Made by a program: the position numbers and the translations under genes
The notes under the pieces: generated by a model
Told to the model about the DNA's origin: nothing
What the model saw: the letters and a program-made list of their open reading frames with translations, nothing else
The model's database searches: none
Shown here: piece by piece, positions 1-41,778 of the stretch
How the letters are laid out: each line of letters begins with the position of its first letter
Position numbering within the stretch: position 1 is the stretch's first letter
Assembly (NCBI GenBank): GCA_004376295.1
Contig: SOJZ01000029.1
Span: 1-64,000, forward strand
DNA: 64,000 nt
Origin: Candidatus Bathyarchaeota archaeon
Lineage (GTDB): Archaea > Thermoproteota > Bathyarchaeia > Bathyarchaeales > Bathyarchaeaceae
Direction of reading: 5' to 3'

Positions 1-2
1 AC

Positions 3-58
3 GGATGGACAATTCGTTACCGCAAGGGTGGCAAGACTTTATGCTCGCTTTTCCCTGA
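3..58 (+). pseudogene. DUF3788-like gene, upstream fragment (interrupted)
   Basis: The frame starting at base 3 reads GWTIRYRKGGKTLCSLFPE and then runs into unrelated sequence and a stop. The 5' part lies outside the window. The downstream half of the same protein resumes at 2782: both sides share the 10-bp string TTTTCCCTGA (49-58 and 2780-2789), and deleting 2731 bp rejoins them in frame as ...SLFPEKGGFTV.... The family call rests on remembered DUF3788 sequences, whose function is unknown. Most likely this is one gene split by an insertion or rearrangement. Confidence 0.6.
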
Positions 59-112
59 ATATGCTATGAAATGCTTAAGCTTTTAATAGTTAGTACTACG
101 TATGCGTTTTTC

Positions 113-123
113 GCATGCATGCA
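113..123. repeat. TGCATGCA-family palindrome
   Basis: GCATGCATGCA lies in the gene-free stretch downstream of the minus-strand gene that ends at 300, close to the left end of the inserted segment. Confidence 0.7.
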
Positions 124-258
124 ACCCAAAACCCAAACCGACTCTAATGAATAGTGCATCATCACAACATTTAAACCACAGAAAGAGTTTTATATGACAT
201 GAGAAAGGAGAGTTAAAGAGGTTTAAAAATGAAGAAAAGGTTAAATCAACAACAGAAG

Positions 259-300
259 AGAATGGGTGACGCCACAAGCAGAATGGGTGACGCCACAAGC
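259..300. repeat. Perfect 21-bp tandem duplication
   Basis: Two identical head-to-tail copies of a 21-bp unit beginning AGAATGGGTGACG occupy 259-279 and 280-300. They reach into the stop-codon end of the minus-strand gene at 300-1094, so the duplication forms its immediate 3' flank. It is probably recent, because the copies are identical. Confidence 0.85.
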
Positions 301-1094
301 TAAACTTTCGATATTTTGAAGTATATTTCGTATGTGTAAGTAATTTTGGGATTTTTTATCTCCCACAGAATCTCTGTATTATCTTTCATGAAAATAGGCT
401 TGAATTTGTTTGTAATGCGTTCTATCTCTAGTACGTCTATTAGTCCATTGTATTGGATTACTTTTATGTTGAGAGCCTCTTTTACGAATTGGTAATTTGA
501 AGGGGCTCTTATTGAAAGTTCTAGTGAATTGGTTGGATGCATTATAGCATGTGACGTCCATTCTTTTTCTAAAGCTTTGGAGTATACCCCTTCCAAACAA
601 ACGGTGTACTCGTAAGTAAAAGCTCTATTTGGCTTGATCGGGGATTGAGGATTTATGTAGAGATCGGTTGAATTATCAAAAGGCGGGGTCTTTCCCCCAG
701 GTATCTTGTGCAAACCGTACGTCTCCAATTCAGGTTTCAAGTGGTCACCGTTAATTTTCACAACTACGTCCTTTCTGGAGAGAGGGGCACCACTGTACTT
801 CAAAAAATGTCTAAGTCGTCGCATGGGGCTTTGTCTATTTCTACAATCGAAAAAGAAGCTAATCTTTGCGTCACCTTTTTGGTTCAATATATCTATTGTC
901 TTTCGGACTCGTCTGTAGCGCATTATTGTTGGCTGTGTAGAAACCTCTTCCTTAAGTTGTCTTAGCTTCTCAAGCAAACGAACAATTTCTGGTGTAACCG
1001 TATAATATCGTGGTTCACCGCGAATAACTCCCTTTATAGGTATCTCTTGCGCGCGCGCACGAGATTCTTGCGCATGTTCTCTGTTCGTAACCAA
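300..1094 (-). CDS. Hypothetical protein, 264 aa
   Basis: The open frame covers 264 residues and ends in ...YEIYFKISKV. I do not recognise a family. The first 70 residues are charged, with a probable helical stretch (residues 35-70, rich in R, L, E, K). The remainder is rich in aromatic and beta-branched residues, suggesting a beta-rich domain. It has no signal peptide or membrane segment and few cysteines. It lies inside the segment that interrupts the DUF3788-like gene, on the same strand as the HtrA-like protease upstream, so the two may have travelled together. The frame is long and free of rare features, so it is probably a real gene. Confidence 0.6.
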   Translation of the reverse strand: MVTNREHAQESRARAQEIPIKGVIRGEPRYYTVTPEIVRLLEKLRQLKEEVSTQPTIMRYRRVRKTIDILNQKGDAKISFFFDCRNRQSPMRRLRHFLKYSGAPLSRKDVVVKINGDHLKPELETYGLHKIPGGKTPPFDNSTDLYINPQSPIKPNRAFTYEYTVCLEGVYSKALEKEWTSHAIMHPTNSLELSIRAPSNYQFVKEALNIKVIQYNGLIDVLEIERITNKFKPIFMKDNTEILWEIKNPKITYTYEIYFKISKV

Positions 1095-1181
1095 TTTTTT
1101 TCACACTTTTCTATTTATAGATTTGTGTCCTACATCAATGTGAGCGAGCGAATTAATAAACAATATCTTTGCTATCATCAA

Positions 1182-2324
1182 TTATCTTTTCACCTCTTGA
1201 GATGATAGGACTCTTCGAGTGAACATTGGACATGTTACACAGTACATAGGATATGGTTTCATGGAATAGCCTTTTTCCGTGCCTTTGCATTTGATGAATT
1301 TCACTTTTTCTCCTTTGATAGTTGTCATCTTAGGTCTTCTAGGGAATCGCCAAAAGGTACACAAACCGTTGTCCAAGTACATACAGTTATCTCTTCTCGA
1401 TTCACCGTGGGAATATGCCACATCTAGGAAAGTTGTCATCTTAGAAACTGCTTCGTTGAGGGTTCTCATAATCTTCCACGTTTGAACACCTCTCTCTATT
1501 ACAAACTCTTTCACGAGTTCACTAGGCCTCAAAAAGTTGAAGCCCTGGACTTCTCCGGTTTCACCGATGCTTCCAAAAGTCGCGACGCCTATGACTTCGC
1601 CTTTTTCGTTCACCACAGGGCCCCCACTGTTACCATGAGTTATCGTTGCATCAGTTTGAAGACAAGGTGATCCATCCTTGGTTTTTCGTTTTCCACTTAT
1701 TATGCCAGACGTTACAGATGGGGTGAGTCCTTTTTTCGTGTCGAGGATCGGATTTTTCGCAACAATTCCTGGATATCCAACGACATATATTTGATCACCA
1801 ACCTCTGTTGTCTCAGATTCTCCTAGCTCAAGTGTCTGTAAATCTTTCATGTCTACTTTGATTATTGCTATGTCTTTTTCATTTGCAGGACTCGGGTCCC
1901 CAATTATTCGTGCCAACACCGCTTCCTTGTCCTGAATGTCAAACCCAGAGACAGCCTTTTCGAATTGTACAAAGACTTTTCTTGTTATGCGACCGGCGTT
2001 ACTATGCTTCAGAATATACTCAAGAGACAAGCCGAATTCCGTGGCTCCTTGCTCAAGAGCGAGTTTTAGGACATAATTGTCGTCTTCGATGTGCTTGTGA
2101 GTGAATGAGAATAGAACATGGCCGTTGGTGACTATGTAACCCTCCGAGGCAACGACAAAACCAGAACCATATCCACCGATCTTGATGATTTTTGTCTGTG
2201 CTGGCCCACTAGGCTGACCGTTGCTGTCTGGTTGTGGAACTTTGACTTCTATTGTGACTATACATACAACAAACGCTGTAGCTGATTTGACCCTTTCAAG
2301 TATACTACTGATTTTCTTGGGCAA
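1182..2324 (-). CDS. HtrA/Deg-like trypsin-family serine protease with C-terminal cysteine cluster
   Basis: This is a chymotrypsin-fold protease (S1C type) of 380 residues. The catalytic triad is visible: His69 in TNGHVL, Asp in EKDIAIIKVD, and Ser in HGNSGGPV. Unlike DegP/DegQ there is no PDZ domain after the protease domain. Instead the last 80 residues hold six cysteines (CMYLDNGLC, IKCKG, YCVTCP) that could bind zinc or another metal. No signal peptide or clear membrane anchor is seen, so a cytoplasmic role is likely. The start codon is TTG. It lies in the segment that splits the DUF3788-like gene. The protease call is firm; the role of the tail is unknown. Confidence 0.85.
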   Translation of the reverse strand: MPKKISSILERVKSATAFVVCIVTIEVKVPQPDSNGQPSGPAQTKIIKIGGYGSGFVVASEGYIVTNGHVLFSFTHKHIEDDNYVLKLALEQGATEFGLSLEYILKHSNAGRITRKVFVQFEKAVSGFDIQDKEAVLARIIGDPSPANEKDIAIIKVDMKDLQTLELGESETTEVGDQIYVVGYPGIVAKNPILDTKKGLTPSVTSGIISGKRKTKDGSPCLQTDATITHGNSGGPVVNEKGEVIGVATFGSIGETGEVQGFNFLRPSELVKEFVIERGVQTWKIMRTLNEAVSKMTTFLDVAYSHGESRRDNCMYLDNGLCTFWRFPRRPKMTTIKGEKVKFIKCKGTEKGYSMKPYPMYCVTCPMFTRRVLSSQEVKR

Positions 2325-2402
2325 ATGTCACATACCACATGAACATGTTTTGAACGCCCACTCAAGTAAATATGAAACGTATTTGATATATATATTATTT
2401 GT

Positions 2403-2543
2403 CTACAACAGTATTATTACAGGCATGCATCCTCTCTCATTCGTTGAATCGTATACTTGGTTTAGCTGTGCGAGACGTTTAAGCGCTTGAGCGAGATTCT
2501 TCGTGTTTGCTTGTTTCAGCCATTTTCTGGTCTTCTTGGGCAT
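2403..2543 (-). CDS. Small basic ORF upstream of the protease
   Basis: A 46-residue frame starts MPKKTRKWLKQANTKN at an ATG preceded by a GAAGGAG ribosome-binding site. It ends 78 bp before the protease start, whose own N-terminus also begins MPKK. It has basic and helical character and no recognised domain. It may be a small expressed protein or a leader peptide. A longer frame up to 2588 exists but ignores the ribosome-binding site. Confidence 0.4.
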   Translation of the reverse strand: MPKKTRKWLKQANTKNLAQALKRLAQLNQVYDSTNERGCMPVIILL

Positions 2544-2601
2544 GAACATTTCTCCTTCTTCTTTCAACTCCGCGCGCTCATGATGCATTCCTGACTTTTG
2601 T

Positions 2602-2611
2602 ATGCATGCAT
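2602..2611. repeat. TGCATGCA-family palindrome
   Basis: ATGCATGCAT lies upstream of the small minus-strand ORF and near the right end of the inserted segment. A related GCATGCAT is at 2423-2430. Confidence 0.7.
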
Positions 2612-2781
2612 TCAGATACCATGCAAACTAAGGCTTAAATGTTATCTTGATGTATCATTTTGATTCAGTAGCTTTTTAATGATTTCGTCTACTAATAGAT
2701 TTTCGATGTATCCCCAGCTTTTCTTAGAAACAAAGAAAACCCACGGAAATCCTCGGGAATATATTAATCTTCTTGAACATT

Positions 2782-3006
2782 TTCCCTGAGAAAGGTGGAT
2801 TTACAGTTCTGATAGTTCTTGGCAAGAAAGAATCCGAAAAAGCTCTTTCAATACGAGATGAACTGAGTTCTAAAATCCATAAGCTTTTGGGGAACACGGA
2901 ACAATTGCACGATGGACGCTGGCTATGGATTAGATTATTGACGACAAGTGACACGGATGACGTAAAGAAGCTTTTGCAGATAAAAAGAAAACCAAAGAAG
3001 ACTTAA
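2782..3006 (+). pseudogene. DUF3788-like gene, downstream fragment
   Basis: This fragment carries the typical DUF3788 C-terminal half as I remember it: GGFTVLIVLGKKESEKAL, then LHDGRWLWIRLL, then DVKKLLQIKRKPKK before the TAA. A TTG at 2773 could start a 77-residue product, but the homology begins at FPEKGGF, exactly where the left-edge fragment stops. The gene therefore looks interrupted rather than short by design. The function of the family is unknown. Confidence 0.6.
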
Positions 3007-3094
3007 ATTGCGGATTTGCTTCAATTCTTAATGTTTACGAGTTTGAAGCAGTATTTTTTGTTCTTTGCCAGAAAGATACAATACGACTTTGCTG

Positions 3095-4141
3095 CTAGCA
3101 TATTCTTGGTATGGGATCGCCTATTGGTGGTGCAAGGATTCTTTTTCCGCCTACTGCGGTTTTGAGGACGACTTCATCAAATTCTTTAGTTACTTCACCT
3201 ACTATTTGAGCTTCTCTACCTTGCTTGGTCTCTTTCAGCGCTGCCAAGACTTCTTCCGCTTTCTGCGGAATCACTCCTATTACTACCTTGCCTTCGTTTC
3301 CAACTTCGAGTGGGTCGATGCCTAACATTTCGCAGGCAGCCCTGACGTCTCCGCGCACGGGGATTTTCTCCTCGTTTACCATGATTCCAACCTTCGACTT
3401 TTCGCTTAGCTCACTTAACGTGTTGGATAATCCGCCTCGGGTAGGGTCTTTCATCGCTAGGATTCCTCCGACGTTTAAGAGGCGCATGATCAGCTTGTTG
3501 AGTGGAGCTACGTCGGATGTGATTTGGCTTCCAAAGTCGTATCCTTCTTGAGACGACAACACGGCTAATCCGTGGTCGCCCACAGTGCCGGAAACTATGA
3601 TTTTGTCTCCTTCTCTCAAGTTGGAGTCGAGAATCCATTGGGCGTCAAAGGAACGATGTTTCTTCACTTCTGCAATGTTTCTTTCCAACGCTTCGTTTCG
3701 TTTGCCTATTCCTGACGTGTTGATGATACATCCTCCTAAGGCGCCTTTTTCAACAACCTTTGTGTCACCTGTAATAATGTAAATGCCTGCTTCCCTGCAA
3801 GTTTCGTTCATGCTCTCCAAAATCTTTTCAAATTCAACCATTGAAAGGCCCTCCTCTAACACGAAGCCGCAAGAAAGCGCAATTGGTTCCGCACCCATAA
3901 CCGCAATATCGTTGACAGTGCCAGCGACTGCGAGTCTTCCAATGTCTCCGCCTGGAAAGAATATAGGCTTCACTACATGCGAGTCAGACTTCAAAACTAT
4001 GTCGCCAATAACCGCCGCATCATCTAGCGCTTCCAACGGAACCTCAGCGCTGCTTCCGCCGAGATATTTTAACACGTAGTCTCTAATCAGGTCGTTCATT
4101 ATGGTTCCGCCGGCGCCATGAGCCATAGTGATTTGTTTCAT
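3095..4141 (-). CDS. hypE: Hydrogenase maturation factor HypE
   Basis: HypE dehydrates the carbamoyl group made by HypF to a thiocyanate on its C-terminal cysteine, the source of the CN ligands of [NiFe]-hydrogenase. The PurM/AIRS-like fold is clear: N-terminal MAHGAGG, LDDAAVI, the central DPTRGGL motif, and the invariant C-terminal PRIC with the acceptor cysteine intact. The length (348 residues) is normal. I prefer the ATG at 4141, which follows GAGGAG by nine bases, over the upstream in-frame TTG at 4147. It is divergent from the polyferredoxin gene. No hydrogenase structural gene lies in the window, so its target must be elsewhere. Confidence 0.95.
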   Translation of the reverse strand: MKQITMAHGAGGTIMNDLIRDYVLKYLGGSSAEVPLEALDDAAVIGDIVLKSDSHVVKPIFFPGGDIGRLAVAGTVNDIAVMGAEPIALSCGFVLEEGLSMVEFEKILESMNETCREAGIYIITGDTKVVEKGALGGCIINTSGIGKRNEALERNIAEVKKHRSFDAQWILDSNLREGDKIIVSGTVGDHGLAVLSSQEGYDFGSQITSDVAPLNKLIMRLLNVGGILAMKDPTRGGLSNTLSELSEKSKVGIMVNEEKIPVRGDVRAACEMLGIDPLEVGNEGKVVIGVIPQKAEEVLAALKETKQGREAQIVGEVTKEFDEVVLKTAVGGKRILAPPIGDPIPRIC

Positions 4142-4315
4142 GATCAAGCGCTCCTCACAACATTGAGAATAGGCTGTCTTAAGAGTCTTATCAATATCTC
4201 TACGGTCATGAATACACTAAAGTTCAAAGAATCGATTAATGTTTAAATAACAGTTTACATCGCCTAAATACTCTTCAGAGGGTTTGTTGTACACCCCCTG
4301 TGTGGATGAACCAAG

Positions 4316-20304: not shown

Positions 20305-20721
20305 TTGGTTAAAGTAGACGACTTCGAGGTGGTTGAAGGACTGCACTACTCAAAGGAGTTTGAGTGGGTACGCGTTGAAGACGGAAAAGTAAGAATCGGA
20401 ATCACCGAATACGCTCAAAAGCAACTTCGTGAAATCGTGTTTGCAGAACTGCCAAGCGTAGGCGACGAAGTTAAACAGAACGACCCTTACGGAACCGTGG
20501 AATCTGTGAAGGCCGTTTCTGATCTGGTCGCTCCGTTAAGCGGGAAAATCGAAGAGGTTAACCAAGAAGTGCTGGATAAACCGGAGTTGATCAATGAAGA
20601 CCCTTACAAGAAAGGATGGCTTCTAGTCATTTCTCCAACCAACCTCGACGCGGAATTGAAAAACATCATGGACTTCAATAAGGCGGTGGAATGGCACAAG
20701 GAACTCATAAAGGAGAGCTGA
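20305..20721 (+). CDS. gcvH: GcvH-like lipoyl carrier protein (copy 1)
   Basis: A 138-residue lipoyl-domain protein with the acceptor lysine, Lys69, in GTVESVKAVSDLVAP and the C-terminal DPYKKGWLLVI. GcvH carries the aminomethyl group on lipoate in the glycine cleavage system; GcvH-like LbpA proteins instead serve sulfur metabolism with sHdr complexes. No gcvP or gcvT is in the window, while lipS1/lipS2, lplA and an Hdr island surround it. The TTG start follows GAGGTGA. An AT-rich TTTTAAAA element about 45 bp upstream may be its TATA box. It is convergent with the Flx-like genes. Confidence 0.9.
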   Translation: MVKVDDFEVVEGLHYSKEFEWVRVEDGKVRIGITEYAQKQLREIVFAELPSVGDEVKQNDPYGTVESVKAVSDLVAPLSGKIEEVNQEVLDKPELINEDPYKKGWLLVISPTNLDAELKNIMDFNKAVEWHKELIKES

Positions 20722-20734
20722 TCGCGCGTAGGCG

Positions 20735-20745
20735 TGCATGCATGC
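20735..20745. repeat. TGCATGCA-family palindrome
   Basis: TGCATGCATGC lies 14 bp after the gcvH stop, between convergent genes, inside the alternating run GCGTGCATGCATGC. Its position suits a 3'-end or processing signal. The rest of the gap to 20973 shows nothing else recognisable. Confidence 0.7.
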
Positions 20746-20973
20746 CGGTCGGTGGGTTTCCTCAGGTGATGTGTGAAGAGTTCTTAGTGAGGACTGTTCC
20801 TGAATCTGTTTCACAATGGTGTACGGCATATTCCAGTTATTTAGATAATTGTAGGCGTCTGAAAAGGAGCTAGAATGAGAATTACTGGCTAGAGCGGGGT
20901 CTAATTTTCTATTCTCAACAAAGAAGCCTTACTTTGGCCAAATGTGCAAGCAAGATATGCGGAGACTGCAAGC

Positions 20974-21813
20974 TCAGTACTCTTTCGGCATCATCTGAAG
21001 CTCTTTATAGGCGAAGACTGGACCGTCTTTGCATGCGAACTTGTTTCCTATGTTGCACCTTCCACATTTTCCGATGCCGCACTTCATCCTCATCTCAAGC
21101 GATAGGAAGACATCCTCTGGAGGGAAGCCGAGTTCATTAATGACTGGCATGGTGAACTTTATCATTATAGGTGGGCCGCAGACAATAGCAATAGCATTGT
21201 GTGCGCTTGGGGCAACCTCCTTGAGAACGGCAGGGACAAAGCCAACCAATCCGGTCCAGCCGGGGACAGCGCGGTCTATGGTCACATTGAGGTTAATGTT
21301 ATCCCTCTTCCCCCAGGCTTCAAGGTCATGTTTATAGATGAGCTCACCTGGGTTGCGGGCTCCGTAGATAACGGTTAAGTCTTTGAACTTGTCTCTGTTG
21401 GCCTCGTGAAGGATGAATTCGGTTAGAGACCTCAACGTTGTGAAGGCGAACCCCCCTCCGACAATAACAACATTGCGGCCTTCCATTCTCTCCAGCGGAA
21501 AACCGTTCCCGTAGGGCCCTCTGACTCCTATGACCGTTCCCTCTTCGCTGTTGTGTAAAGCCGTAGTGACAACTCCAACTTTTTTCACGGTGAACTGAAT
21601 GCAATCTTCGTCCATAGGGGATGAGGCTATGCCTATAGGGCACTCTCCTGCACCGAAGACAGAGATTTCTGCAAACTGACCACACCTGTATCTGAAGCTC
21701 TTCATTGCCTCCAGATCTTTGAAAACGAGCTCAAAGGTCTTTATGTCGTTCGCTTCGTTTTCTGTTGTGATCTTTCTGATGACCGCGAGGTTTGGGATGT
21801 ATGGATTATTCAT
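20974..21813 (-). CDS. FAD/NAD(P)-binding oxidoreductase subunit, FlxA / sulfhydrogenase gamma type
   Basis: The protein (279 residues) has a ferredoxin-NADP-reductase-like fold: an FAD site (FRYRCGQFAEISVFG, GIASSP), an NAD(P) site (VIVGGGFAFTTLR, CGPPIM), and a C-terminal [2Fe-2S] motif CGIGKCGRC...C. It resembles the gamma subunit of sulfhydrogenase and FlxA of Flx-Hdr complexes, which take electrons from NAD(P)H. It is the last gene of a tightly packed minus-strand operon: the start is six bases from the stop of the preceding gene. It probably delivers hydride electrons to the upstream [4Fe-4S] subunits, MvhD and HdrA. Confidence 0.85.
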   Translation of the reverse strand: MNNPYIPNLAVIRKITTENEANDIKTFELVFKDLEAMKSFRYRCGQFAEISVFGAGECPIGIASSPMDEDCIQFTVKKVGVVTTALHNSEEGTVIGVRGPYGNGFPLERMEGRNVVIVGGGFAFTTLRSLTEFILHEANRDKFKDLTVIYGARNPGELIYKHDLEAWGKRDNINLNVTIDRAVPGWTGLVGFVPAVLKEVAPSAHNAIAIVCGPPIMIKFTMPVINELGFPPEDVFLSLEMRMKCGIGKCGRCNIGNKFACKDGPVFAYKELQMMPKEY

Positions 21814-21819
21814 CCTTTA

Positions 21820-22857
21820 CTACACCTGTCTGGTTGATATTGCCCCAACTACTTCTCTAATGTCAAGGTTCACAGGACACTCCTGAACGCATCTTCCACA
21901 GCCTACGCAGAAGCTTTCGCCGTGGTTCTTGACGAAATAGTTGAACTTGTGCATGATTCTCTGCCTCATCCTCTCCTTTCCCGAAGGACGGGGATTGTGC
22001 CCAGAACCTTGTAATGTGAAGCAGGAGAACTGGCACGAGTCCCAAATTCTGACCCTTTTTCTTTCTTCTGTTTCTTCGTCCAGAATGTCGAAGCAGCAAC
22101 AGGCGGGACAAAGGAAGGTGCAGACTCCACAGCCTAAGCACTTCTGATATATCTGGTCCCACAAGGGGTCGTCGAACATTCTATCGAGTTTTTCGCTCAC
22201 ATCCTTAACAGAAACCTTAGACTTCACAGCGTTTTCAGCGTCTTCGGAGAGCATCTTCGCCTTCTCTACGTCCGCTTTTTCTGCGTCCTTCAGCCACGGA
22301 AACTTTTTAACGAGTTCCTCGCCTCTTTGAGTGGCTGTTTCTATCAGATACTTGTCGTTTATGTCTTGGAGGAGTAGGTCCATGCCCTCTTTTCCGAACG
22401 GACCCCCTCCTAGGGACGTGCAGAAACATGTACTCAGAGGATGATTGCACGCCAACCCAACTACGGTTGTGTTCTTTCTCTTCTCTAGATAGTACAAGTC
22501 TTTGTGTTCTCCGAAAGAGAAGAACTTGTCCAGCAAAACGAAGCTTCTGGCATCGCAGGGACGGACGCCCAACACCATCATCTTTGCCTTTACGGCGGGA
22601 GACTCTACTATCTCCACATCTTTTTCGCCAATCCTATAGGTGAACAGCACCTCTGTTTGTGGAAAGAAAACCTCTTTGGGAGGCTTCTTTGTGTTCCAGA
22701 AGCCTAGATAAGCTTCGTTTCCAGAGGAGAGCCTTTCAAAGGAGACGATGTTTTTTTCCTTGACTGGCGCGAAAATTTCGTATTCACTAGCCAGTTCTGC
22801 AATGAGGGCAGGTAATTTACTTTTTTCTATAACCTTCCACTTCACTATAAACACCAC
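21820..22857 (-). CDS. [4Fe-4S] subunit, FlxB / sulfhydrogenase beta type
   Basis: This is a 345-residue iron-sulfur protein like the beta subunit of sulfhydrogenase and the A subunit of anaerobic sulfite reductase. The N-terminal half contains the conserved GVRPCDARSF and GLACNHPLSTCFCTSLGGGP stretches. The C-terminal half has two ferredoxin-type clusters, CLGCGVCTFLCPACCC and CVGCGRCVQECP. It should pass electrons between the flavin subunit (next gene) and the Hdr side. It lies between genes with gaps of three and six bases, indicating one operon. Confidence 0.85.
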   Translation of the reverse strand: MVFIVKWKVIEKSKLPALIAELASEYEIFAPVKEKNIVSFERLSSGNEAYLGFWNTKKPPKEVFFPQTEVLFTYRIGEKDVEIVESPAVKAKMMVLGVRPCDARSFVLLDKFFSFGEHKDLYYLEKRKNTTVVGLACNHPLSTCFCTSLGGGPFGKEGMDLLLQDINDKYLIETATQRGEELVKKFPWLKDAEKADVEKAKMLSEDAENAVKSKVSVKDVSEKLDRMFDDPLWDQIYQKCLGCGVCTFLCPACCCFDILDEETEERKRVRIWDSCQFSCFTLQGSGHNPRPSGKERMRQRIMHKFNYFVKNHGESFCVGCGRCVQECPVNLDIREVVGAISTRQV

Positions 22858-22860
22858 GTT

Positions 22861-23811
22861 TCACTTGATGAACTCCTGAGGATCCTCCATTTTGAACTCT
22901 CCCAACGGGGGAACCTTTTCGAGGCTTACTCCTGCCTCGTAGCCGTATCGTTCTTTCATAATCTTTTCAGTTTTCTTCATAAGCTCCCTCAGGTTTATGT
23001 CCATCGGGCAAGCTCGACTGCAGGCTCCGCAATCGACACACCGCCCAGCCACATGGAAGGCGCGGACGATGTGGTAAATCATGGTGTCAGCGAGGTCGTT
23101 CGTCTTGCCGAACCACGCGGGCATGGTCTGGTCGACGAAGCACATTTTGCAGTAGCAGAGGGGACAAACGTTCCTGCAAGCGTAGCACCTGATGCACTTG
23201 CTTAGTTCTTCCTTAAAATGTTCCCATCTCTCTTCCGCCGACTTCGACTCAAGGCTAGAAACATCAGCGAATTCGTTCGCCTCCGTGATTTCCGGTACCT
23301 TTTCCCCCACAAACACGTCGTAGATCGGTGGATTCCTATGCTTACAGGTTAGGCATGAGTCGCAGAGGAAGTCTTTTTTCGGTAAGACAAGCTCAAACCC
23401 TTCTCCCTTAACCTTGATCTGTTCATCCTCAACGATGGCTTCAAGGACCTCTCTATCGCCGAGTTCCATTTCTATTTTTTTCCTATCAATGACCCCTAGG
23501 CAAGGGACACCGATTATAACCACATTTTCCCTCGGAAACTGCTTCTCTATGATGCAAACCGCTATTAACCGTGCGTCACAACCCTTTGCCACGACACCCA
23601 CCTTTTCCTTTCTACCTACCACGTATTTCGAAAGGTTGGCATCGCAACTTGCGTTCCAAACAAGCTTCTGAATGTCCTCTACTTTGTCCACAAAGCACGG
23701 AGTCGTGCGGAGAGGCAGGGTTCCTCGCTCGTATCCAATTATTAGGTCAACCTTCTTCTCGCTGAGAAGCTTTTCCGCAACCTCTCTTATCGAATTTTCA
23801 AGGTTTTCCAT
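22861..23811 (-). CDS. Iron-sulfur subunit, FlxC-like (FrhB-related N-terminus plus two clusters)
   Basis: The 316-residue protein has an N-terminal domain related to the FrhB/Cys-rich family (GVVAKGCDARLIAVCIIEKQ, then VIIGVPCLG), a CDSCLTCKHR motif, and a C-terminal double cluster region (CIRCYACRNVCPLCYC, CVDCGACSRACP). Such proteins accompany FlxA/FlxB in Hdr-linked complexes. The start ATG overlaps the end of the upstream mvhD by 14 bases. It probably bridges the NAD(P)H module to MvhD. The Flx naming is by gene order and similarity from memory. Confidence 0.8.
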   Translation of the reverse strand: MENLENSIREVAEKLLSEKKVDLIIGYERGTLPLRTTPCFVDKVEDIQKLVWNASCDANLSKYVVGRKEKVGVVAKGCDARLIAVCIIEKQFPRENVVIIGVPCLGVIDRKKIEMELGDREVLEAIVEDEQIKVKGEGFELVLPKKDFLCDSCLTCKHRNPPIYDVFVGEKVPEITEANEFADVSSLESKSAEERWEHFKEELSKCIRCYACRNVCPLCYCKMCFVDQTMPAWFGKTNDLADTMIYHIVRAFHVAGRCVDCGACSRACPMDINLRELMKKTEKIMKERYGYEAGVSLEKVPPLGEFKMEDPQEFIK

Positions 23812-24256
23812 ACGGCACTACCCCTTTCACCAGTCTTTCGGTGGGCCCTAGGGCCTTCACCTTTTCTACCACGTCCTTCACAACATTAGCAAACTTTTCA
23901 CCTTCAGCCGCAGAGACCCATGAGAAGTTTACCCTTCCAGGCTCAATCCCGAGGTATTCCAGTAGGTCCTTCAAGACAGCGAATCTCCTTCTGGCCACGA
24001 GGTTTCCGCTAATGTAGTGGCAATCGCCTGGGTGGCATCCTGAGACTAAGACCCCGTCCCAGCCGCGTTGAAGGGCTTTTATTATAAAGTATGGGTTGAC
24101 TCTTCCAGAGCACGGCACTCGGACGACCCTTATGTTAGGAGGATACTGCATCCTGCTTATTCCAGCAAGGTCTGCTCCAGCGTAACTGCACCAGTTGCAC
24201 AGGAAGGCTAGTATTTTCGGGTTCCATTCTTTTTCAGCAGTTTTCACTTTGATCAC
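23798..24256 (-). CDS. mvhD: MvhD-type electron-transfer subunit
   Basis: This is a 152-residue MvhD (FlpD) protein, the [2Fe-2S] relay that docks electron donors to HdrA. It has the hallmark FLCNWCSYAGADLAG, then RVVRVPCSGRV and SGCHPGDCHYISGN. I place the start at the GTG of the GTGA overlap with the hdrA stop at 24253-24255. The longer reading frame into hdrA lacks family similarity. It is followed by the FlxC/B/A-like genes, so this copy likely serves the NAD(P)H-linked branch. Confidence 0.88.
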   Translation of the reverse strand: MIKVKTAEKEWNPKILAFLCNWCSYAGADLAGISRMQYPPNIRVVRVPCSGRVNPYFIIKALQRGWDGVLVSGCHPGDCHYISGNLVARRRFAVLKDLLEYLGIEPGRVNFSWVSAAEGEKFANVVKDVVEKVKALGPTERLVKGVVPYGKP

Positions 24257-27200
24257 ATCAACGCGTTTATAATCAAGCTCATCTGCAGGTCGGTGAAGCC
24301 TTTGATGTCTATTGCCGAGCACCTGCAAGTAGCGGCGCAGGCTCCGCATCCCTTGCAGAGGGCGCTGTTCACCTTCGCTATTTTCCCCCTCTTAGTTTCT
24401 TCGATTTCTATTGCGTTGTAGGCGCATACGAGTATACAGAGCTCGCACGCTGTGCATCTATCCGGGTTGACCGTGGCGATAATTCCCTCAGCCTCGATAG
24501 TGTCTTTCGTCAGCAACGTACATGCTCTGGACACCGCAGCCTTCGCTTGGGAGATGCTCTCTTCTATGGATTTCGGCGAGTGGGCCATCCCGCACACGAA
24601 GATGCCTTCTGTGGCGAAGTCAACGGGTCGAAGCTTAGCGTGCGCCTCTAAGAAGAATCCGTCTTCGTTTATGGGAACCTTCAGCATCTTGGCTAGATTC
24701 TCGTTTTCTTTAGGTGGAACCACGGCTACGCTCAGAACAAGGAGGTCTGCATCTATGACTATGTCTTCTTGGATGGTTGGTTCAAAAACTGATACCTGCA
24801 AGACTTCTTTTCCTCCTGACGTGGCCTTGGCAACTTTCGGCTTGTTTCCCTCTTCGTAGCGGATGAAGACCACTCCAGCTTCTCGAGCCCTTCTATAGTG
24901 TTCTTCCATTAGGCCGTAGGTTCTTATGTCTCGGTAAAGGACGTACACGTTAGCGTCTGGGTCTTTCTCCTTGATCTTCACGGAGTTCTTGACCGCCTCT
25001 CCGCAGCACATTCTGCTGCAGTATGGGTGTTCGCCATTCCTAGACCCCACGCATTGAATCATCACCACGTTGCCGAACTTTTCGTTGCCAGCAGTTTCGA
25101 TTCTGTTCTCCAATTCCAGCTGCGTCAATACGCGGGCGGCTTTTCCATAGAGGTACTCGTTTGGGCGGTATTCTTCGCCTCCGGTAGCCACGATGATGAC
25201 TCCGTGCTCCAGCTCCTTTTTCGCTTCGCTGCCTGAGTTTAGGGTTACAGTGGTTTTGAAGTTCCCCACGTAGCCGGAGACGTTCTCGACCTTCGCATTA
25301 AGGAAGACTTGGATCAACTTGTTCGAGTTTACCTTTTCAATCATGGTCCTTAGGTACTCTTGGGTATCGTCGTTGTCCAGCGTGTAGTGTATCTTGCGGA
25401 GGAAACCTCCAAGCTCTTTGTTCTTCTCTACTAAGTCAACTTCAAAGCCTTGCTCGGCTAGGGCTTGAGCCGCGGTCATTCCTGCCAATCCTCCCCCGAT
25501 GACGAGGCCTCGGCGGGTCACGTCTAGAGAAAACCTTTCTAGGGGCTCTAGTATTCGAGCTTTCGCCACCGCCATTCTCACCAAGTCCTTCGCCTTTTCC
25601 GTGGCGGCTTCAGGATCGTGCATGTGCACCCAGGAACATTGGTCGCGGATGTTGGCCATCTCGAAGAGGTACCTGTTTAGGCGAGCTTCCTTTATCGTTT
25701 CTTGGAATAGGGGTTCATGGGTTCGGGGTGAACATGAGGCCACTATGACCCTGTTTAATCCGTATTCTTGGATTCTCTTCTTGATTATCTCTTGAGTGTC
25801 TGAGGAGCAGGTGTAGAGGTTGTGGCAGGCGTGGACGACGTTTGGGAGAGCTTGAGCATACTCCACGACGCTTGGAACATCGACAACTCCTCCAATGTTA
25901 ATGCCGCAGTGACATATGAAGACCCCTATTCTCGGAGGCTGACCCCTCACATCCAGCTCTTTTGGATACTCCTTCTTCTTGACCAGGGTTCCTCGAACAG
26001 GAGATAGCAATTCGCCCACGCTAGCAGCGGCGGCGCTGGCTTGGGTCACGGTCTCGGGGATGTCTTTGGGCGAGGAGAACATGCCGCAGACGAAAACTCC
26101 GGGCCTAGAGGTTTCCAACGGGTGAAAAGGTTGGGTTTTGGAGAAACCGTGTTCGTTCAGCTCAACATCGAGGTTTTTGGCTAGCTTCTTAACATTCTCT
26201 GATGGTGTGAAGCCAATCGAGAGGACGACTAAGTTGAACTCTTCTTCGTGGAGCCCTCCGTCTTCAGTCTCGTACCTTATCCTTAGGTTTTGAGTCTTGG
26301 GTATCTCCTGTACTTCGGACACTCTGCACCTGACAAATCTAACTCCATATTCGTTCTTAGCCCTCTCAATATACTTATCAAAGTCTTTTCCGTAGGCCCG
26401 CAAGTCTATATAGAAGATCGTGGGTTCAACCTGGATCATGTGCTCTCTGGCTATAACTGCCTCTTTCGTAGCGTACATGCAGCAAACCGAAGAGCAGTAT
26501 CCGTTTCCACACGTGATGTCTCTAGAGCCGACGCACTGTATGAAAGCAATTTTCCTAGGGATATCTCCATCTGAAGGCCTCTGCACACGACCCATGAAAG
26601 GTCCAGAAGCGCTCAAGATGCGCTCGAACTCGATGCTCGTGACCACGTTGGGGTATCTTCCGTAACCATACTCGCTCTTCAACTTGGCGTTAAACTCCTC
26701 AATGCCAGGGGCTAGAATGACAGCGCCAACGTTAAGCTTAACTTCTTTCTCCTGATCCGAGTAGTTTATAGCGTCAGCCAGACAAACGTTTTTGCAGAGC
26801 CCACAGCCTATACACAGTTCCCTATCAATCATGTACACTAGGGGAACGGCTTGCGGGTAGTTGATATGAATCGCCGTTCTGTCACTCAAGCCTTTGTTGA
26901 AGACGTCTATGGCGTCGACTGGACAGAACTCGGCGCACAGCCCACACCCTGTACACTTCTCGATGTCAACGTATCTTGGTCGTTGTCTCACTGAGACGTT
27001 GAAGTTGCCTACGTCTCCAGAAATCTCGGTGACTTCGGAGCATGTTAAAACCTCAACGTTCAAGTGTCTTCCGCACTCCACGAGCTTTGGGGATAGAATG
27101 CACATGGAGCAGTCGTTGGTTGGAAAGGTTTTGTCCAGTTGCGCCATGACCCCGCCTATAGCCGAGGAGTTATCCACCACGTAAACTTTGAAACCTGACT

Positions 27201-27300
27201 CGGCTAGGTCGAGCGCAGCCTGTATCCCTCCAATTCCCCCACCCACAACCAGCACTGAACCTACCTTGCTTGCTTCAGAAACAGGGTTTCGCGAGTTCAT
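24253..27300 (-). CDS. hdrA: Double HdrA (tandem HdrA-HdrA fusion), 1015 aa
   Basis: Two HdrA units lie in one chain. The first half has GGGIGG, the active HdrA signature KTFPTNDCSMCI and an inserted double ferredoxin (CTGCGLCAEFCP, CIGCGLCKNVC). The second half begins with the N-terminal HdrA domain (GVFICHCGINI), then a second FAD domain (GGGLAGM), and ends with a ferredoxin (CTACELCILVC, CKGCGACAATC). The second half lacks the DCSMC signature, so the halves are not equivalent. The ATG at 27300 follows a strong GGAGG; longer readings overlap mvhD. The gene order and domain split mirror the two separate hdrA genes upstream. It probably bifurcates electrons. Confidence 0.9.
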   Translation of the reverse strand: MNSRNPVSEASKVGSVLVVGGGIGGIQAALDLAESGFKVYVVDNSSAIGGVMAQLDKTFPTNDCSMCILSPKLVECGRHLNVEVLTCSEVTEISGDVGNFNVSVRQRPRYVDIEKCTGCGLCAEFCPVDAIDVFNKGLSDRTAIHINYPQAVPLVYMIDRELCIGCGLCKNVCLADAINYSDQEKEVKLNVGAVILAPGIEEFNAKLKSEYGYGRYPNVVTSIEFERILSASGPFMGRVQRPSDGDIPRKIAFIQCVGSRDITCGNGYCSSVCCMYATKEAVIAREHMIQVEPTIFYIDLRAYGKDFDKYIERAKNEYGVRFVRCRVSEVQEIPKTQNLRIRYETEDGGLHEEEFNLVVLSIGFTPSENVKKLAKNLDVELNEHGFSKTQPFHPLETSRPGVFVCGMFSSPKDIPETVTQASAAAASVGELLSPVRGTLVKKKEYPKELDVRGQPPRIGVFICHCGINIGGVVDVPSVVEYAQALPNVVHACHNLYTCSSDTQEIIKKRIQEYGLNRVIVASCSPRTHEPLFQETIKEARLNRYLFEMANIRDQCSWVHMHDPEAATEKAKDLVRMAVAKARILEPLERFSLDVTRRGLVIGGGLAGMTAAQALAEQGFEVDLVEKNKELGGFLRKIHYTLDNDDTQEYLRTMIEKVNSNKLIQVFLNAKVENVSGYVGNFKTTVTLNSGSEAKKELEHGVIIVATGGEEYRPNEYLYGKAARVLTQLELENRIETAGNEKFGNVVMIQCVGSRNGEHPYCSRMCCGEAVKNSVKIKEKDPDANVYVLYRDIRTYGLMEEHYRRAREAGVVFIRYEEGNKPKVAKATSGGKEVLQVSVFEPTIQEDIVIDADLLVLSVAVVPPKENENLAKMLKVPINEDGFFLEAHAKLRPVDFATEGIFVCGMAHSPKSIEESISQAKAAVSRACTLLTKDTIEAEGIIATVNPDRCTACELCILVCAYNAIEIEETKRGKIAKVNSALCKGCGACAATCRCSAIDIKGFTDLQMSLIINALM

Positions 27301-27334
27301 GTTTGTTGTCCTCCATTTTGTTGATTTTGACCTC

Positions 27335-28117
27335 TCACCCTTCAGCCCTTCGATACTTCGGACTGTTTTCTTCGATCCCCACAACAGAGACCAGCCCGTC
27401 GCGCTCGAGAGAGACCATGTTTCTCAGCACTTCCCTCGGTGAAGCTTCTACTCTCTGAGCTATCTCCTTGACAGAGAGAGCGTCTTCTCCAATGGAGAGA
27501 AGAATCCTTCTTTTCGCAAACTCCTTCTCGATAGTTCGGAGCATCAACTGGTCGAACTCTTCTTGTGACACCTTCTCCCCGAAGACATTCTTATCCTCTA
27601 CGAGCGCCATTTCCCTGCCCACTAGCCATCTGATCTTCTCCTGGGCGAGAGTCTCCTTGGCCGCAACCAAGCGTGCTCTCAACTGTTGTGGCTCTAGGTC
27701 TGTTTCGTTGCCCAACGGACCCAGTTTCCTTACCCTTTCTGTGAAATCTTTCACCAGGGTTGCAAAACGTTCGCCCTCGGACGCGGACACCCAGTCGATT
27801 AGCAGTCGCTCAGGCGACAACCCTGCGTTCTTAAGGACTTTTTTAGTTGTTTTCACTCTTCTTTCTGTGTAGTAGTTTCCGGTCATGTAGTGGCAGTCGC
27901 CGAGGTGGCAGCCCAGAAGCATAACGCCGTCCAACCCTCTGATGAAGGCTTCAAGAACGATGGTTGGGTCAACCCTTGCTGAGCACATCACCCTGATAAT
28001 CCTGACGTTTGGCGGATACTGGAAACGGCTGACTCCAGCTAGGTCTGCGCCGGCGTAGGAACACCAGTTGCAGAGGAATCCGAGGACGTCTGGCTCAAAG
28101 CTTCCTTGAAGAGTCAT
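27335..28117 (-). CDS. mvhD: MvhD with C-terminal winged-helix domain
   Basis: The first 150 residues are a standard MvhD ([2Fe-2S] relay): GFLCNWCSYAGADLAG, RVMCSARVD, LLGCHLGDCHYMTGN. After a helical linker the last 75 residues look like a winged helix-turn-helix (DALSVKEIAQRVEASPREVL, then NMVSLERDGLVSVVG). This tail could bind DNA as a redox-responsive regulator or simply act as a docking module. The start ATG overlaps the upstream hdrA stop (ATGA). It belongs to the split-HdrA module. The MvhD part is certain; the role of the tail is open. Confidence 0.88.
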   Translation of the reverse strand: MTLQGSFEPDVLGFLCNWCSYAGADLAGVSRFQYPPNVRIIRVMCSARVDPTIVLEAFIRGLDGVMLLGCHLGDCHYMTGNYYTERRVKTTKKVLKNAGLSPERLLIDWVSASEGERFATLVKDFTERVRKLGPLGNETDLEPQQLRARLVAAKETLAQEKIRWLVGREMALVEDKNVFGEKVSQEEFDQLMLRTIEKEFAKRRILLSIGEDALSVKEIAQRVEASPREVLRNMVSLERDGLVSVVGIEENSPKYRRAEG

Positions 28118-29787
28118 GGTACCGCCTCTGCTAGGGTAATTACTTGCGCGAGGAGTTGCTCATCCGTGAAGTGCCGCATGGTAATCGCCTTTTGGGGACA
28201 ACCAGCCCCGCACGCCCCGCAACCCTTGCAGGAGGCGGCTATCACCTTCGCTTTCCTTCCCTTCTCGGTCTCTTCGATCCGTATCGCCTTGAAAGGGCAA
28301 GTCAGTTCACATAAGCTGCAGCCTGAGCATTCGTCCTCGTCAACCACAGCGATTGAGGGCTCAGTTTTCACGTGCCCAACGGATAACGGTATGGACGCTC
28401 TAGAGGCTGCACCATACGCCTGTGAAATGCTCTCGCCGACATTGGTTGGCCAGTGGGCGCAGCCGCACATATAGATGCCGTCCGTTGCGAAGTCGATGGG
28501 TCGAAGCTTCACGTGTGCCTCCAGGAAGAAGCCGTACTCATCTACTGGCACTTTCAGTTTCTGTGCGAGATCTGCTGAGTCGAGGTGGGCAACCATCGGG
28601 GTGGACAGCACAACCAAGTCGTAGGGCAGGCTAAGTTCCTCACCCAAGAACTCATCATAAACTCTCACCGACCCATTCTCGACGACCGGATGCTTTTCAG
28701 GCGAGTATTTTATGAACGTTATGCCGGTTTCTCTCGCTTTTCCATAGTAATCCTCATAACTGGTTCCTTGGGTCACCATGTCTTTGTAGAGTATGAAAAC
28801 CTGAGCGTCTGGGTTAGCTTCCCTAATCAGCATGGCGTTTTTGAGGGCAGTTGGACAGCAAACCTTGGAGCAGTAGGCTCTTTTTTCGTTCCTCGATCCT
28901 ACGCACTGGATCATCACAACCGTGTCAGCGTTGAGCCTTCCTTTCTCCAGCATTCGTTCCAGTTCCATCTGAGTGATAACATTTTCTCCATCGTAACCAT
29001 ACATACCCACAGGCTTGAGTGTCCCCGCACCTGTTGCCACTATGATAACTCCGGCCTTGAAGAACCTCTCCTTTTCTCCCTGCCTTACCGTGACATCGTA
29101 GTTGCCAATGAAGCCCTTAACATCTTCAACTTCTGAAGACGTCAAAACCTCTATCTTCGGGTTCTTCTCAATCTCCTTGGTCTTCGCCTGAACCAGCTTT
29201 GAGGCTTCTTCATGTGTTGGGTAAAGCATGTAGAGATTGTTTAGAGTTCCGCCTAACCGGTCCTCCTTCTCTATCAGCTTCACCTCAAAGCCTCGGTTGG
29301 CTAGGCTTAGCGCACAGGTCATTCCCGCTATTCCTCCGCCAATCACCAGAGCGCAGGGATTGACCTCAACCTCGATCTCTTCCAAGGGCTCCAGCAACAC
29401 CGCCCTTGCGACTCCCATCCTTATGAGGGCCTTCGCCTTTTCGGTTGCCCTCTCCCTTTCTTGCATGTGAACCCAAGAGCACTGGTCCCTTATGTTGACG
29501 AACTGAAAGAGGTAGGGGTTCAGTCCTGCCTCCTTGCAAGTTGATCTGAACAGTGGTTCATGGGTCCTAGGGGTGCAAGAGGCTACAACCGCGCGGTTCA
29601 GCTTGTTTTCAGCTATAGCGTTTCTTATTTCTGTCAATCCGGCATCGGAGCATGTATATTGGTTGTCCTTCGCGAAAACAACGTTGGGTAGGTTTAGGGC
29701 GTATTTAGCGAGTCCCGGGACGTCCAGAAATCCTCCTATGTTCGTTCCGCAGTGGCAGACGAAAACGCCGACTCTCACTTCATTCAA
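28114..29787 (-). CDS. hdrA: HdrA, C-half type with N-terminal domain and terminal ferredoxin
   Basis: The 557-residue flavoprotein corresponds to the second half of the double HdrA at 24253. It begins with the HdrA N-terminal domain (GVFVCHCGTNI, CTPRTHEP), continues into an FAD domain (GGGIAGM, VMIQCVGSRN, CSKVCCP), and ends with two [4Fe-4S] motifs (CSGCSLCELTCP, CKGCGACGAGCP). It lacks the inserted ferredoxin and the DCSxC signature. It lies seven bases after the preceding hdrA and overlaps the following mvhD by four. It probably forms a heterodimer with the 430-residue HdrA encoded just upstream. Confidence 0.9.
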   Translation of the reverse strand: MNEVRVGVFVCHCGTNIGGFLDVPGLAKYALNLPNVVFAKDNQYTCSDAGLTEIRNAIAENKLNRAVVASCTPRTHEPLFRSTCKEAGLNPYLFQFVNIRDQCSWVHMQERERATEKAKALIRMGVARAVLLEPLEEIEVEVNPCALVIGGGIAGMTCALSLANRGFEVKLIEKEDRLGGTLNNLYMLYPTHEEASKLVQAKTKEIEKNPKIEVLTSSEVEDVKGFIGNYDVTVRQGEKERFFKAGVIIVATGAGTLKPVGMYGYDGENVITQMELERMLEKGRLNADTVVMIQCVGSRNEKRAYCSKVCCPTALKNAMLIREANPDAQVFILYKDMVTQGTSYEDYYGKARETGITFIKYSPEKHPVVENGSVRVYDEFLGEELSLPYDLVVLSTPMVAHLDSADLAQKLKVPVDEYGFFLEAHVKLRPIDFATDGIYMCGCAHWPTNVGESISQAYGAASRASIPLSVGHVKTEPSIAVVDEDECSGCSLCELTCPFKAIRIEETEKGRKAKVIAASCKGCGACGAGCPQKAITMRHFTDEQLLAQVITLAEAVP

Positions 29788-29794
29788 GCTCTTG

Positions 29795-31087
29795 TCACCT
29801 CATCACCGTTTCTGCAGCCCTCTCGGCTGCTCCACTCGCTTGGGCTACGGACTCCGGTATGTCCGTTGGCTCCCGACAGCAACCACATACGAATATTCCC
29901 GGCCTCGTTGTGTCCAGCGGATTGAGAGGGTCTGTCTTAAAGAAGTTATATTCGTCAAGCTCGACGCCCAGGACTTTTGCTAGTTCCTTTACGTCCCTCC
30001 TCGGCATCAGGCTTGTCGCCAAAACCGCCAGGTCTACGGTCATTTTGTTTGTTTTAGAGCTTTGGGTTTCCTCATACCAAACTATGGGGTTCTCGTCACG
30101 ATCTTCGGTGATCTTGGCTACCCTTCCTCGGATATATGATATGTTATACTCTTGCTCTCCACGCGCCACGTACTCTTGAAAACCTTTACCTGCGGCCCTG
30201 AGGTCAATGTAGAATATGCAAGACTTCACATTGGGATTATGTTCATAGGCGAGCATAGCCTCCTTAGTTGCGTGCATACAGCAGACGGATGAGCAGTAAG
30301 GGTTGTTTTTGAAGTCTCTAGACCCGACGCACTGGACGAAAGCTATTTTCTCTACGGGTTTATTGTCTGAGGGCCTCGTGAGGTGTCCTCCCGTGGGTCC
30401 CGAAGCGCATATCAGTCTCTCGTATTCCAAAGAAATGATTACGTTTCTGTATCTTTTGTAGCCATACTGGGGTATTCCAGATGGATCGTAAGGGTCAAAA
30501 CCGGTGGCGACGATGATGGCGCCAACGTTCAACATTGCATCTGCGTCTTTCTGCTCAAAGTCTATTGCCTCGCTATTACAAAATTTCTCGCAGATTCTGC
30601 ACACACCTCGCGTTAGGTAAAGGCAGTTTTCCCTGTCAATGGTCATGACCGCTGGAACTCCTTGCAGGTAGTATGGATATATGGCCTCTCTCTTTCTCAG
30701 TTCCATATCAAACTCGTCAGGCACCTTTACGGGGCATTTTGCGACGCAATCCCCACAGTTGACACATTTCTTTTCATCAACAAATCTGGCATACTTAAGT
30801 AACTTTACTGAGAAATCCCCCATCTGGCCCGTTACATTTTTGACCTCCGACAGCGTGTGGAGGGTAATGTTTGGGTGTCTGAAGCAATCAGCCAGTTTGG
30901 GGGCTAGTATACAGATAGAACAGTCGTTTGTTGGGAAAGTCTTGTCGAGCTGAGCCATTCTTCCTCCTATGCTCGGCTTCCTCTCAACTAGGTGCACCTT
31001 CATTCCCATATCTCCGAGGTCGAGAGCGGCTTGAATGCCCGCTATTCCACCACCAATAACCAGAACTGCCTTAGGCTTTTTTTCCAA
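29795..31087 (-). CDS. hdrA: HdrA, N-half type (QmoA-like core)
   Basis: This 430-residue flavoprotein matches the first half of the double HdrA. It has GGGIAG, the HdrA signature KTFPTNDCSICI, a ferredoxin insertion (CVNCGDCVAKCP) with a second irregular cluster (CLYLTRGVCRICEKFC), FVQCVGSRD and CSSVCCM, and it ends without the N-terminal domain or terminal ferredoxin. In family terms it carries the bifurcating-type flavin site. Its start overlaps the end of the FrhB-like gene by 17 bases. The irregular second cluster, with extra residues between cysteines, sets it apart from the fused copy. Confidence 0.9.
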   Translation of the reverse strand: MEKKPKAVLVIGGGIAGIQAALDLGDMGMKVHLVERKPSIGGRMAQLDKTFPTNDCSICILAPKLADCFRHPNITLHTLSEVKNVTGQMGDFSVKLLKYARFVDEKKCVNCGDCVAKCPVKVPDEFDMELRKREAIYPYYLQGVPAVMTIDRENCLYLTRGVCRICEKFCNSEAIDFEQKDADAMLNVGAIIVATGFDPYDPSGIPQYGYKRYRNVIISLEYERLICASGPTGGHLTRPSDNKPVEKIAFVQCVGSRDFKNNPYCSSVCCMHATKEAMLAYEHNPNVKSCIFYIDLRAAGKGFQEYVARGEQEYNISYIRGRVAKITEDRDENPIVWYEETQSSKTNKMTVDLAVLATSLMPRRDVKELAKVLGVELDEYNFFKTDPLNPLDTTRPGIFVCGCCREPTDIPESVAQASGAAERAAETVMR

Positions 31088-32213
31088 TGGCTTCTCCCCC
31101 AGTCAATTCCAAGAGTCTCTCCTTGGCTCTCATCCGCTTCCTTCTAGCGAAGGAAACAATTTTGGCTAACATCATTGTCTTATCCAGCCTACTCTCCTCC
31201 GCATCTTCAAAGGTTCTTTCTTGGATGTAGCCTCTACGAAGGGCCTGGTCGTAGAGTGATGCACCCAGTTCTGTCCTTATAAGAACTGTAGTATATCCAT
31301 CTGGCGAACCAAGTCCTCCAACTGAAATATCAGCGTACTCGTTGCTGAAGTCTCGACATGCGAAACATGCTGGGCGGGCAACTTCATGTATTTCTTCTAA
31401 TGGGACATGGATCGTCGCGCCCTTAGTGAGGGAGATTATGAAATCATCCTTGATGTTTAGTTTGACGACGTCCTCTAGATTGATGTCAAATTTTTTCTCT
31501 AACTTTTCCCTTGCTACATCATCAAAGGAGAAGTTTTCTATGCAGAATAATCCTATCGTATATTTTATTAGGTGGGCTGGGAGGACTCCGAGGCATTGCA
31601 TCTTTCGGATCGCGTTAATCTGGCATGGAGTTCCGACCACAGCTATATCCCGTAAATAACTTTTCTCCAAGCTCTTTACCGTGGATAAAATAGGAGTGTA
31701 TGTAGTATATTTCCCCCCTAATTCTTCGAGGTGAAGGGACCCTGAGAACGCAGAGCCAGCGGCTTCGATGAGTTCCCCAGGCGTTCTGGCGATTATCGCC
31801 TTTCTGGCGAAGCGTCCAATCTTCTTTGAGACAACGGCGCCATTTATCAAATTGCGCTCCATTAAGTATGAGAGGAGGGAGGTCACCACCCCTCCGTCTG
31901 TGCAAACCGTCATTATCTCCTTATTCGTTGTCTGAGCTGAAGTTATCCTCTGGTAATATCCTGTAGGGGGCTTCCAACCAAACTTCTCCTGAAGTTCTGC
32001 GTTTAAAGTATCCGTTTGGGGGCATATGAGGTAGCATATTCCGCATTTTTGACAATTGTCCTCGTTGATATATCGTGGCAAGTCGTTCTCGCCCATTTCT
32101 AAGGCGTTGAGCTCTCCTGCTGAGCAAAAGGAGATGCATCCACCACATTTACCGCATATTCCCCTTTCAATCACTTCTTCGGTCAGGTCTTTGAATGTCC
32201 TAGTCTCCTCCAT
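31071..32213 (-). CDS. F420-dependent FrhB/FdhB-like subunit
   Basis: This 380-residue protein belongs to the coenzyme F420 hydrogenase/dehydrogenase beta family, which contains FAD and [4Fe-4S] and exchanges hydride with F420. Visible are two N-terminal clusters (CGKCGGCISFC, CQKCGICYLICP), the nucleotide-binding TDGGVVTSLL, the VVGTPCQINAIRK motif and the Cys pair CFACRDF. The ATG at 32213 is preceded by AAGG; an in-frame TTG lies three codons upstream. It heads the minus-strand hdrA-hdrA-mvhD operon. It probably links F420H2 oxidation or F420 reduction to the Hdr complex. Confidence 0.87.
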   Translation of the reverse strand: MEETRTFKDLTEEVIERGICGKCGGCISFCSAGELNALEMGENDLPRYINEDNCQKCGICYLICPQTDTLNAELQEKFGWKPPTGYYQRITSAQTTNKEIMTVCTDGGVVTSLLSYLMERNLINGAVVSKKIGRFARKAIIARTPGELIEAAGSAFSGSLHLEELGGKYTTYTPILSTVKSLEKSYLRDIAVVGTPCQINAIRKMQCLGVLPAHLIKYTIGLFCIENFSFDDVAREKLEKKFDINLEDVVKLNIKDDFIISLTKGATIHVPLEEIHEVARPACFACRDFSNEYADISVGGLGSPDGYTTVLIRTELGASLYDQALRRGYIQERTFEDAEESRLDKTMMLAKIVSFARRKRMRAKERLLELTGGEAIGKKA

Positions 32214-32358
32214 AGCAACCAAACCTTAGAACGTTACTATAATTTTGTACACCTTTATTTAGGAATCCCTTATACGCAATTTGGAGAACAACAAATTTAA
32301 AGAAGTGATGTAATCCTATAATTTCTCGTCAAGGAGTAAGTCTAGGAGAAATTGAACC

Positions 32359-33708: not shown

Positions 33709-33791
33709 ATAGAAACCGCCATTAGACGCTGACTGCGGATTCAAAGCCAATTTCGCCTAGAGTGAGATCGGGAGCCTAGAAGGTTTAATGA

Positions 33792-34262
33792 ATGAAAGTC
33801 AACACATACGACATTCCTGAACGTTATTATTACACTAAAGAACACGAGTGGATCTTAATAGAAAACGCTGATACCGCGAAAATAGGCGTCACAGATTATG
33901 CTCAGAAAGCATTAAGGGAAATTACATATTTTTACGTAGGGAAGAAGGGAGCTGAAGTCAAACGAATGGAGACAATCTGCAAAATAGAGTCAGTAAAATG
34001 TGTCTCTGAGATATTAAGTCCTCTTTCAGGCCTGGTTCTCAGATTCAATAACGCACTATTTGACACTCCGGGCATCATAAATCAAGACCCTTATGGCAAA
34101 GGTTGGATAACAATCATCCGCCCCACAAACCTTGACAAGGAACTAGAAAAATTATTGAAACCAGAACTTTACGCGGAGCACATCAAAGAACTTACCAAAA
34201 TCGATGAAACTTTATTGATTTATAGATGGAAAAAAGGTACAAAGGAGAAAACGGGCGAATAG
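33792..34262 (+). CDS. gcvH: GcvH-like lipoyl carrier protein (copy 2)
   Basis: A 156-residue GcvH-like protein with the acceptor Lys69 in KIESVKCVSEILSP and DPYGKGWITII downstream. It differs from copy 1 by a cysteine right after the lipoyl lysine, another at Cys63, and a 25-residue charged C-terminal extension. It is encoded between hdrB and frhB, downstream of the single-cysteine disulfide reductase on the same strand, and its stop lies 11 bases from the convergent hdrB stop. The placement suggests service to the Hdr machinery rather than glycine cleavage. Confidence 0.9.
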   Translation: MKVNTYDIPERYYYTKEHEWILIENADTAKIGVTDYAQKALREITYFYVGKKGAEVKRMETICKIESVKCVSEILSPLSGLVLRFNNALFDTPGIINQDPYGKGWITIIRPTNLDKELEKLLKPELYAEHIKELTKIDETLLIYRWKKGTKEKTGE

Positions 34263-34273
34263 AAGTTCTAAAC

Positions 34274-39817: not shown

Positions 39818-39834
39818 AACTCCACAGAAAAGTA

Positions 39835-39882: not shown

Positions 39883-39960
39883 AAACACAAAAAGGCGAAA
39901 TATTATTAAGAAAAAACATGCGATAGACTTGACAACAAACAATAAAGATGTGATCACAAA

Positions 39961-41767: not shown

Positions 41768-41778
41768 AAACATCAATT

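Follow-up and report, generated by a model that had tools for sequence, protein, structure and literature searches.

A 2.7-kb cargo segment interrupts a DUF3788 gene in a Bathyarchaeota archaeon

Introduction

The systems closest to the locus described here are integrase-less satellites or cargo islands, non-autonomous derivatives of insertion sequences (MITE-like elements and transporter IS with passenger genes), integron gene cassettes and, for the cargo, proteases of the HtrA/DegP type (PF13365). Archaeal integrases favour tRNA genes, and a 10-bp core inside a protein gene is unusual. Among insertion sequences, a target duplication of 10 bp is within the range of some families. Integron gene cassettes have been reported in archaea (PMC9668308).

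Here we describe a segment of 2,721 bp that lies within a DUF3788 gene of a Candidatus Bathyarchaeota archaeon (GCA_004376295.1). The assembly (G000) comprises 1.89 Mb in 44 contigs. The window, the whole stretch of 64,000 nucleotides that was analysed, is the start of a 100-kb contig (C29, SOJZ01000029.1).

Results and Discussion

The DUF3788 gene is split between window positions 58 and 2780, and the 10-bp sequence TTTTCCCTGA is present at each junction (49–58 and 2780–2789, exactly matching). The 5′ side (1–58, plus strand) and the 3′ part (2780–3006, plus strand) enclose the inserted segment at 59–2779, which measures 2,731 bp when one repeat copy is included. Positions 3–58 translate to GWTIRYRKGGKTLCSLFPE, a central part of a DUF3788 protein. 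The frame continues as YAMKCLSF and then stops, and the remainder of the domain resumes at 2780. In a profile search with PF12663 (DUF3788), the joined halves scored 80 bits (E 2e-22), above the curated cut-off of 25 bits. Alone, the halves scored 21.7 bits (profile 47–66) and 52.2 bits (profile 62–128); they match adjoining parts of the profile. Within the window, a junction identity of at least 10 bp was reached by only 7 of 200,000 random breakpoint pairs. A search of the genome for a further DUF3788 gene found none. The sequence-only reading had described a gene of this family cut by a segment with 10-bp direct repeats, and that description stands.

An empty site was found in a genome of the same genus (G003), where an uninterrupted orthologue with a single TTTTCCCTGA lies in a collinear region (C41:4434–4711). 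In the DUF3788 region, the DNA of the two genomes is approximately 91–95% identical; the 5′ side is 96.6% identical to C41:4434–4491, and the 3′ part has 95.2% identity. The joined sequence aligns gap-free through the junction to G003, G056 and G038, and the segment is missing at the orthologous site of all three. Orthologues with an intact frame are present in G050, G065, G027, G094 and G093; in all, seven relatives more distant than G003 carry intact DUF3788 orthologues. Because the site is empty in G003 and the orthologues of relatives are intact, the intact gene is the ancestral state, and 2,721 bp together with one copy of the 10-bp repeat were gained here. The comparison indicates a recent insertion, a single event that truncated a formerly intact DUF3788 gene. 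That an insertion took place is, in our judgement, close to certain.

When the window and C43, another contig of the assembly, were scanned against G003 stretches for other clean insertions, only the 2.7-kb insert and one 0.68-kb gap were seen. Two other features were noted along the window. The interval 20714–35787 spans approximately 15 kb, against only about 1.2 kb in the syntenic contig C41 of G003, and may be a strain-specific island or reflect a deletion in G003. A stretch of approximately 100–200 bp at 50540–50780 matches some twenty places in G003 at about 73–96% identity and appears to be a dispersed repeat family.

The left junction lies at the edge of its contig, which raises the question of whether the gene and the segment were joined by the assembly and occur together in no real genome. 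The sequence-only reading needs one correction here: the window starts at a contig end, so that only 58 bp of the 5′ half are inside it, and the missing part is at the end of C43. The reverse complement of C43 ends with exactly window bases 1–55. We infer that this overlap is the trace left between neighbouring contigs by an assembly graph with 55-base words. The left junction is only 58 bp away from the end of its contig, and it is at the left repeat that the graph branches. The contig itself breaks three bases short of the repeat end, whereas a simple mixture of occupied and empty sites would put the break at the repeat end. The base just after the overlap differs in G056 (CCCAGAG, compared with CCCTGAG in the window). 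The branch may therefore stem from a second strain in the sample that has such a synonymous change and an empty site, and this possibility counts for an artefact. However, ten repeated bases do not suffice to open a false path in a graph of 55-base words, and the right junction is internal to the 100-kb contig. In addition, both flanks map to a single G003 contig in the expected order, with C43 sequence (C41:1–4488), the intact gene and C29 sequence (4482 onward). An artefact of assembly is thus a far-fetched explanation of the locus.

The genes of the insert are all on the minus strand, in the order 61-aa ORF, 380-aa protease and 264-aa ORFan. In base composition the insert does not stand out from the window. 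A protease and an unknown gene had been read in the segment from its letters, and both are borne out. The protease (1182–2324) is an HtrA-like/Trypsin_2 serine protease (PF13365, E 4.7e-28; DegQ in the PDB, E 8e-18). The motifs GHV, KDIAII and GNSGG (positions 68, 150 and 231) are intact and give a His-Asp-Ser triad. The C-terminal tail contains several cysteines. No PDZ domain was matched in Pfam, and the protein scores below every NCBIfam DegP/HtrA cut-off (for TIGR02037, 111.5 bits where 416 are required). An HtrA-like protease of some sort is present in most relatives, and the best outside match of the insert protease, in G113, is only 37% identical. The homologues in G113 and G032 look secreted and membrane-anchored, and neither has a 264-aa partner gene. 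Bacterial relatives at 17 loci were set aside as generic trypsin-like domains, and the PADLOC matches of the protease (RT-Protease and LmuA) reflect only the shared trypsin domain. The protease gene is preceded by a TATA-like A+T stretch (2386–2400, minus strand), a putative promoter.

The ORFan (300–1094, minus strand) has no match in Pfam, PADLOC or NCBIfam, and no convincing homologue was found in viral contigs, GTDB contigs, phages, plasmids or 150 relatives. Against approximately 400 genomes of the same phylum, the best match had an E-value of 6e-4 (G464) and none was convincing; the G464 match overlies an ORF resembling thioredoxin and was rejected. The structure predicted without an alignment had a mean pLDDT of 35.8. 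No travelling pair of protease and ORFan was found in the genomes searched. A 21-bp unit, AGAATGGGTGACGCCACAAGC, occurs as a tandem pair inside the insert at 259–300. On the minus strand at 2642–2779, an open frame comes in at the right edge of the insert and reads RLIYSRGFPWVFFVSKKSWGYIENLLVDEIIKKLLNQNDTSR up to a stop near 2642; it has no homologue and no family match, and is possibly a truncated gene end. No structured RNA was found in 1–4200.

The 61-aa ORF (2403–2588, minus strand) contains the stretch KWLKQANTKNLAQALKRLAQLNQ, distant relatives of which occur in loci that are provirus-like or bear an integrase. A 25-residue stretch of it is related to short ORFs in G017, in G008 and on contig C28 of the same assembly. 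The relative in G017 adjoins an ORF resembling a tyrosine recombinase, and the copies on C28 (a small domain, KWL...RLAQLNQTKVYLFW) are located near both sides of a provirus-like region. These relatives are weak hints that the insert may have a mobile origin. The region on C28 (approximately 45400–57800, locus L082) carries terminase and head/tail-like genes and an ABC-ATPase/GNAT-like fusion, as judged by eye from the translations.

No recombinase, integrase or transposase was found among the ORFs of the insert; for the transposase this agrees with the sequence-only reading. The ends show no terminal inverted repeats, as their best inverted match was reached by 41% of shuffles. No second DNA copy of the segment was detected in its own genome or in 100 relatives; no other sequence sharing the ends and no second occupied site were found. 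The integron attC core (RYYYAAC...GTTRRRY) has no match on either strand of 1–3050, by which identity as an integron cassette was rejected. Phage_integrase (tyrosine recombinase) matches occur at 15 places in the genome, and DDE_Tnp_1 (PF01609, IS4-type transposases) has no match. The genome holds five other TTTTCCCTGA sites, and none of their contigs has a listed integrase match.

Palindromes had also been pointed out near both ends of the segment. The octamer TGCATGCA is really there, and it is unrelated to the ends: it is a genome-wide over-represented word, with 427 occurrences in the 1.89-Mb genome compared with 6 for the reversed word, and this excess rules it out as a marker of element ends. 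The window contains 19 sites (1.1 expected), 15 of them at 39752–48709, and among the 8-mer families of the 108 kb examined the word ranks first in enrichment. The excess is reminiscent of HIP1-type iterated palindromes.

How the segment entered the gene can be approached from its junctions. Each junction has the identical 10-bp sequence and the empty target has it once, as would a core in integration by a tyrosine recombinase. An exact 10-bp repeat that is single in the empty site is equally the pattern of a target-site duplication, and it fits other mechanisms as well. Site-specific integration is favoured over DDE transposition because the junction repeats are exact and the ends lack inverted repeats. 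Since the genome has 15 tyrosine-recombinase matches and no DDE_Tnp_1, we put first, tentatively and at somewhat less than even odds, an integrase-less element or satellite recombined in trans. A foreign 2.72-kb cargo segment, with its leftward set of small ORF, HtrA-type protease and ORFan, would have entered in this form and recombined through the 10-bp core into the DUF3788 gene. The tyrosine recombinase would have been supplied by another element of the same genome. Such integration would duplicate or share the 10-bp sequence at the junctions and truncate the gene. The relatives of the 61-aa ORF near the recombinase-like ORF of G017 and the provirus-like region on C28 count weakly for recombination in trans. 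Against it count the absence of an integrase from the insert, the lack of recognised att-like arms, the unusual target within a protein gene and the location of the other TTTTCCCTGA sites off the contigs with listed integrase matches.

The repeat fits a staggered-cut target duplication or microhomology equally well, and with only one event these cannot be separated from a recombination core by sequence. A linear or circular foreign fragment could have been joined, as a one-off and by no dedicated recombinase, either where a double-strand break had staggered ends or by microhomology over 10 bp. A single copy with ends common to nothing else and no inverted repeats would be expected of such capture, and the frame entering at the right edge looks as if cut from a larger molecule, although it has no homologue. 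Ten exact bases are long for chance, as the random breakpoints showed, though microhomology joining would select precisely this. Illegitimate capture follows closely behind recombination in trans and is, on balance, somewhat unlikely. The clean empty site, together with a duplication of a length known from insertion sequences, would also suit a non-autonomous transposon with degenerate or cryptic ends, moved by a DDE transposase that acts in trans and duplicates 10 bp of its target. This comes third and is rather improbable, given the absence of terminal inverted repeats, of a second copy and, in the one DDE family searched, of a transposase in the genome. Mobilisation of the IS4 type was rejected on the missing DDE_Tnp_1 and inverted ends.

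Conclusion

The locus is a record of one cargo insertion, by which one DUF3788 gene was lost. It provides a clean recent insertion with a known empty site, from a lineage for which few descriptions of mobile elements exist. The mechanism could be tested once these segment ends are found at further places.

Like integrase-less satellites and cargo islands, the insert has short direct repeats at its junctions, cargo genes, no recombinase and no inverted terminal repeats. It differs from them in that no second copy, att arms or partner element was recognised and in its target, which is a protein gene and not a tRNA gene. With non-autonomous IS derivatives it shares a direct repeat of approximately 10 bp, the absence of a transposase and an interrupted gene; it differs in its single copy, in its ends and in the DDE_Tnp_1-free genome. 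It resembles integron cassettes as a small mobile unit with one or two genes, but there is no attC core, and its site lies within a gene that is intact in relatives. The protease is similar to the HtrA/DegP type in its domain and triad motifs and differs in its NCBIfam scores, the unmatched PDZ domain, the cysteine-containing tail and the ORFan neighbour. The sequence-only reading had proposed a new type of gene cassette or a non-autonomous element. A new cassette type is unsupported because it rests on one event, and the single copy, the ends and the lone occupied site do not bear the proposal out. It is very doubtful that the segment belongs to an undescribed class of recombinase-less cargo without terminal repeats, inserting into protein genes in these archaea via a 10-bp core and carrying protease-plus-unknown, possibly defence, modules. 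Nothing shows a new class of mobile element; set against the known systems, the event is of an ordinary kind, and its cargo is unusual.
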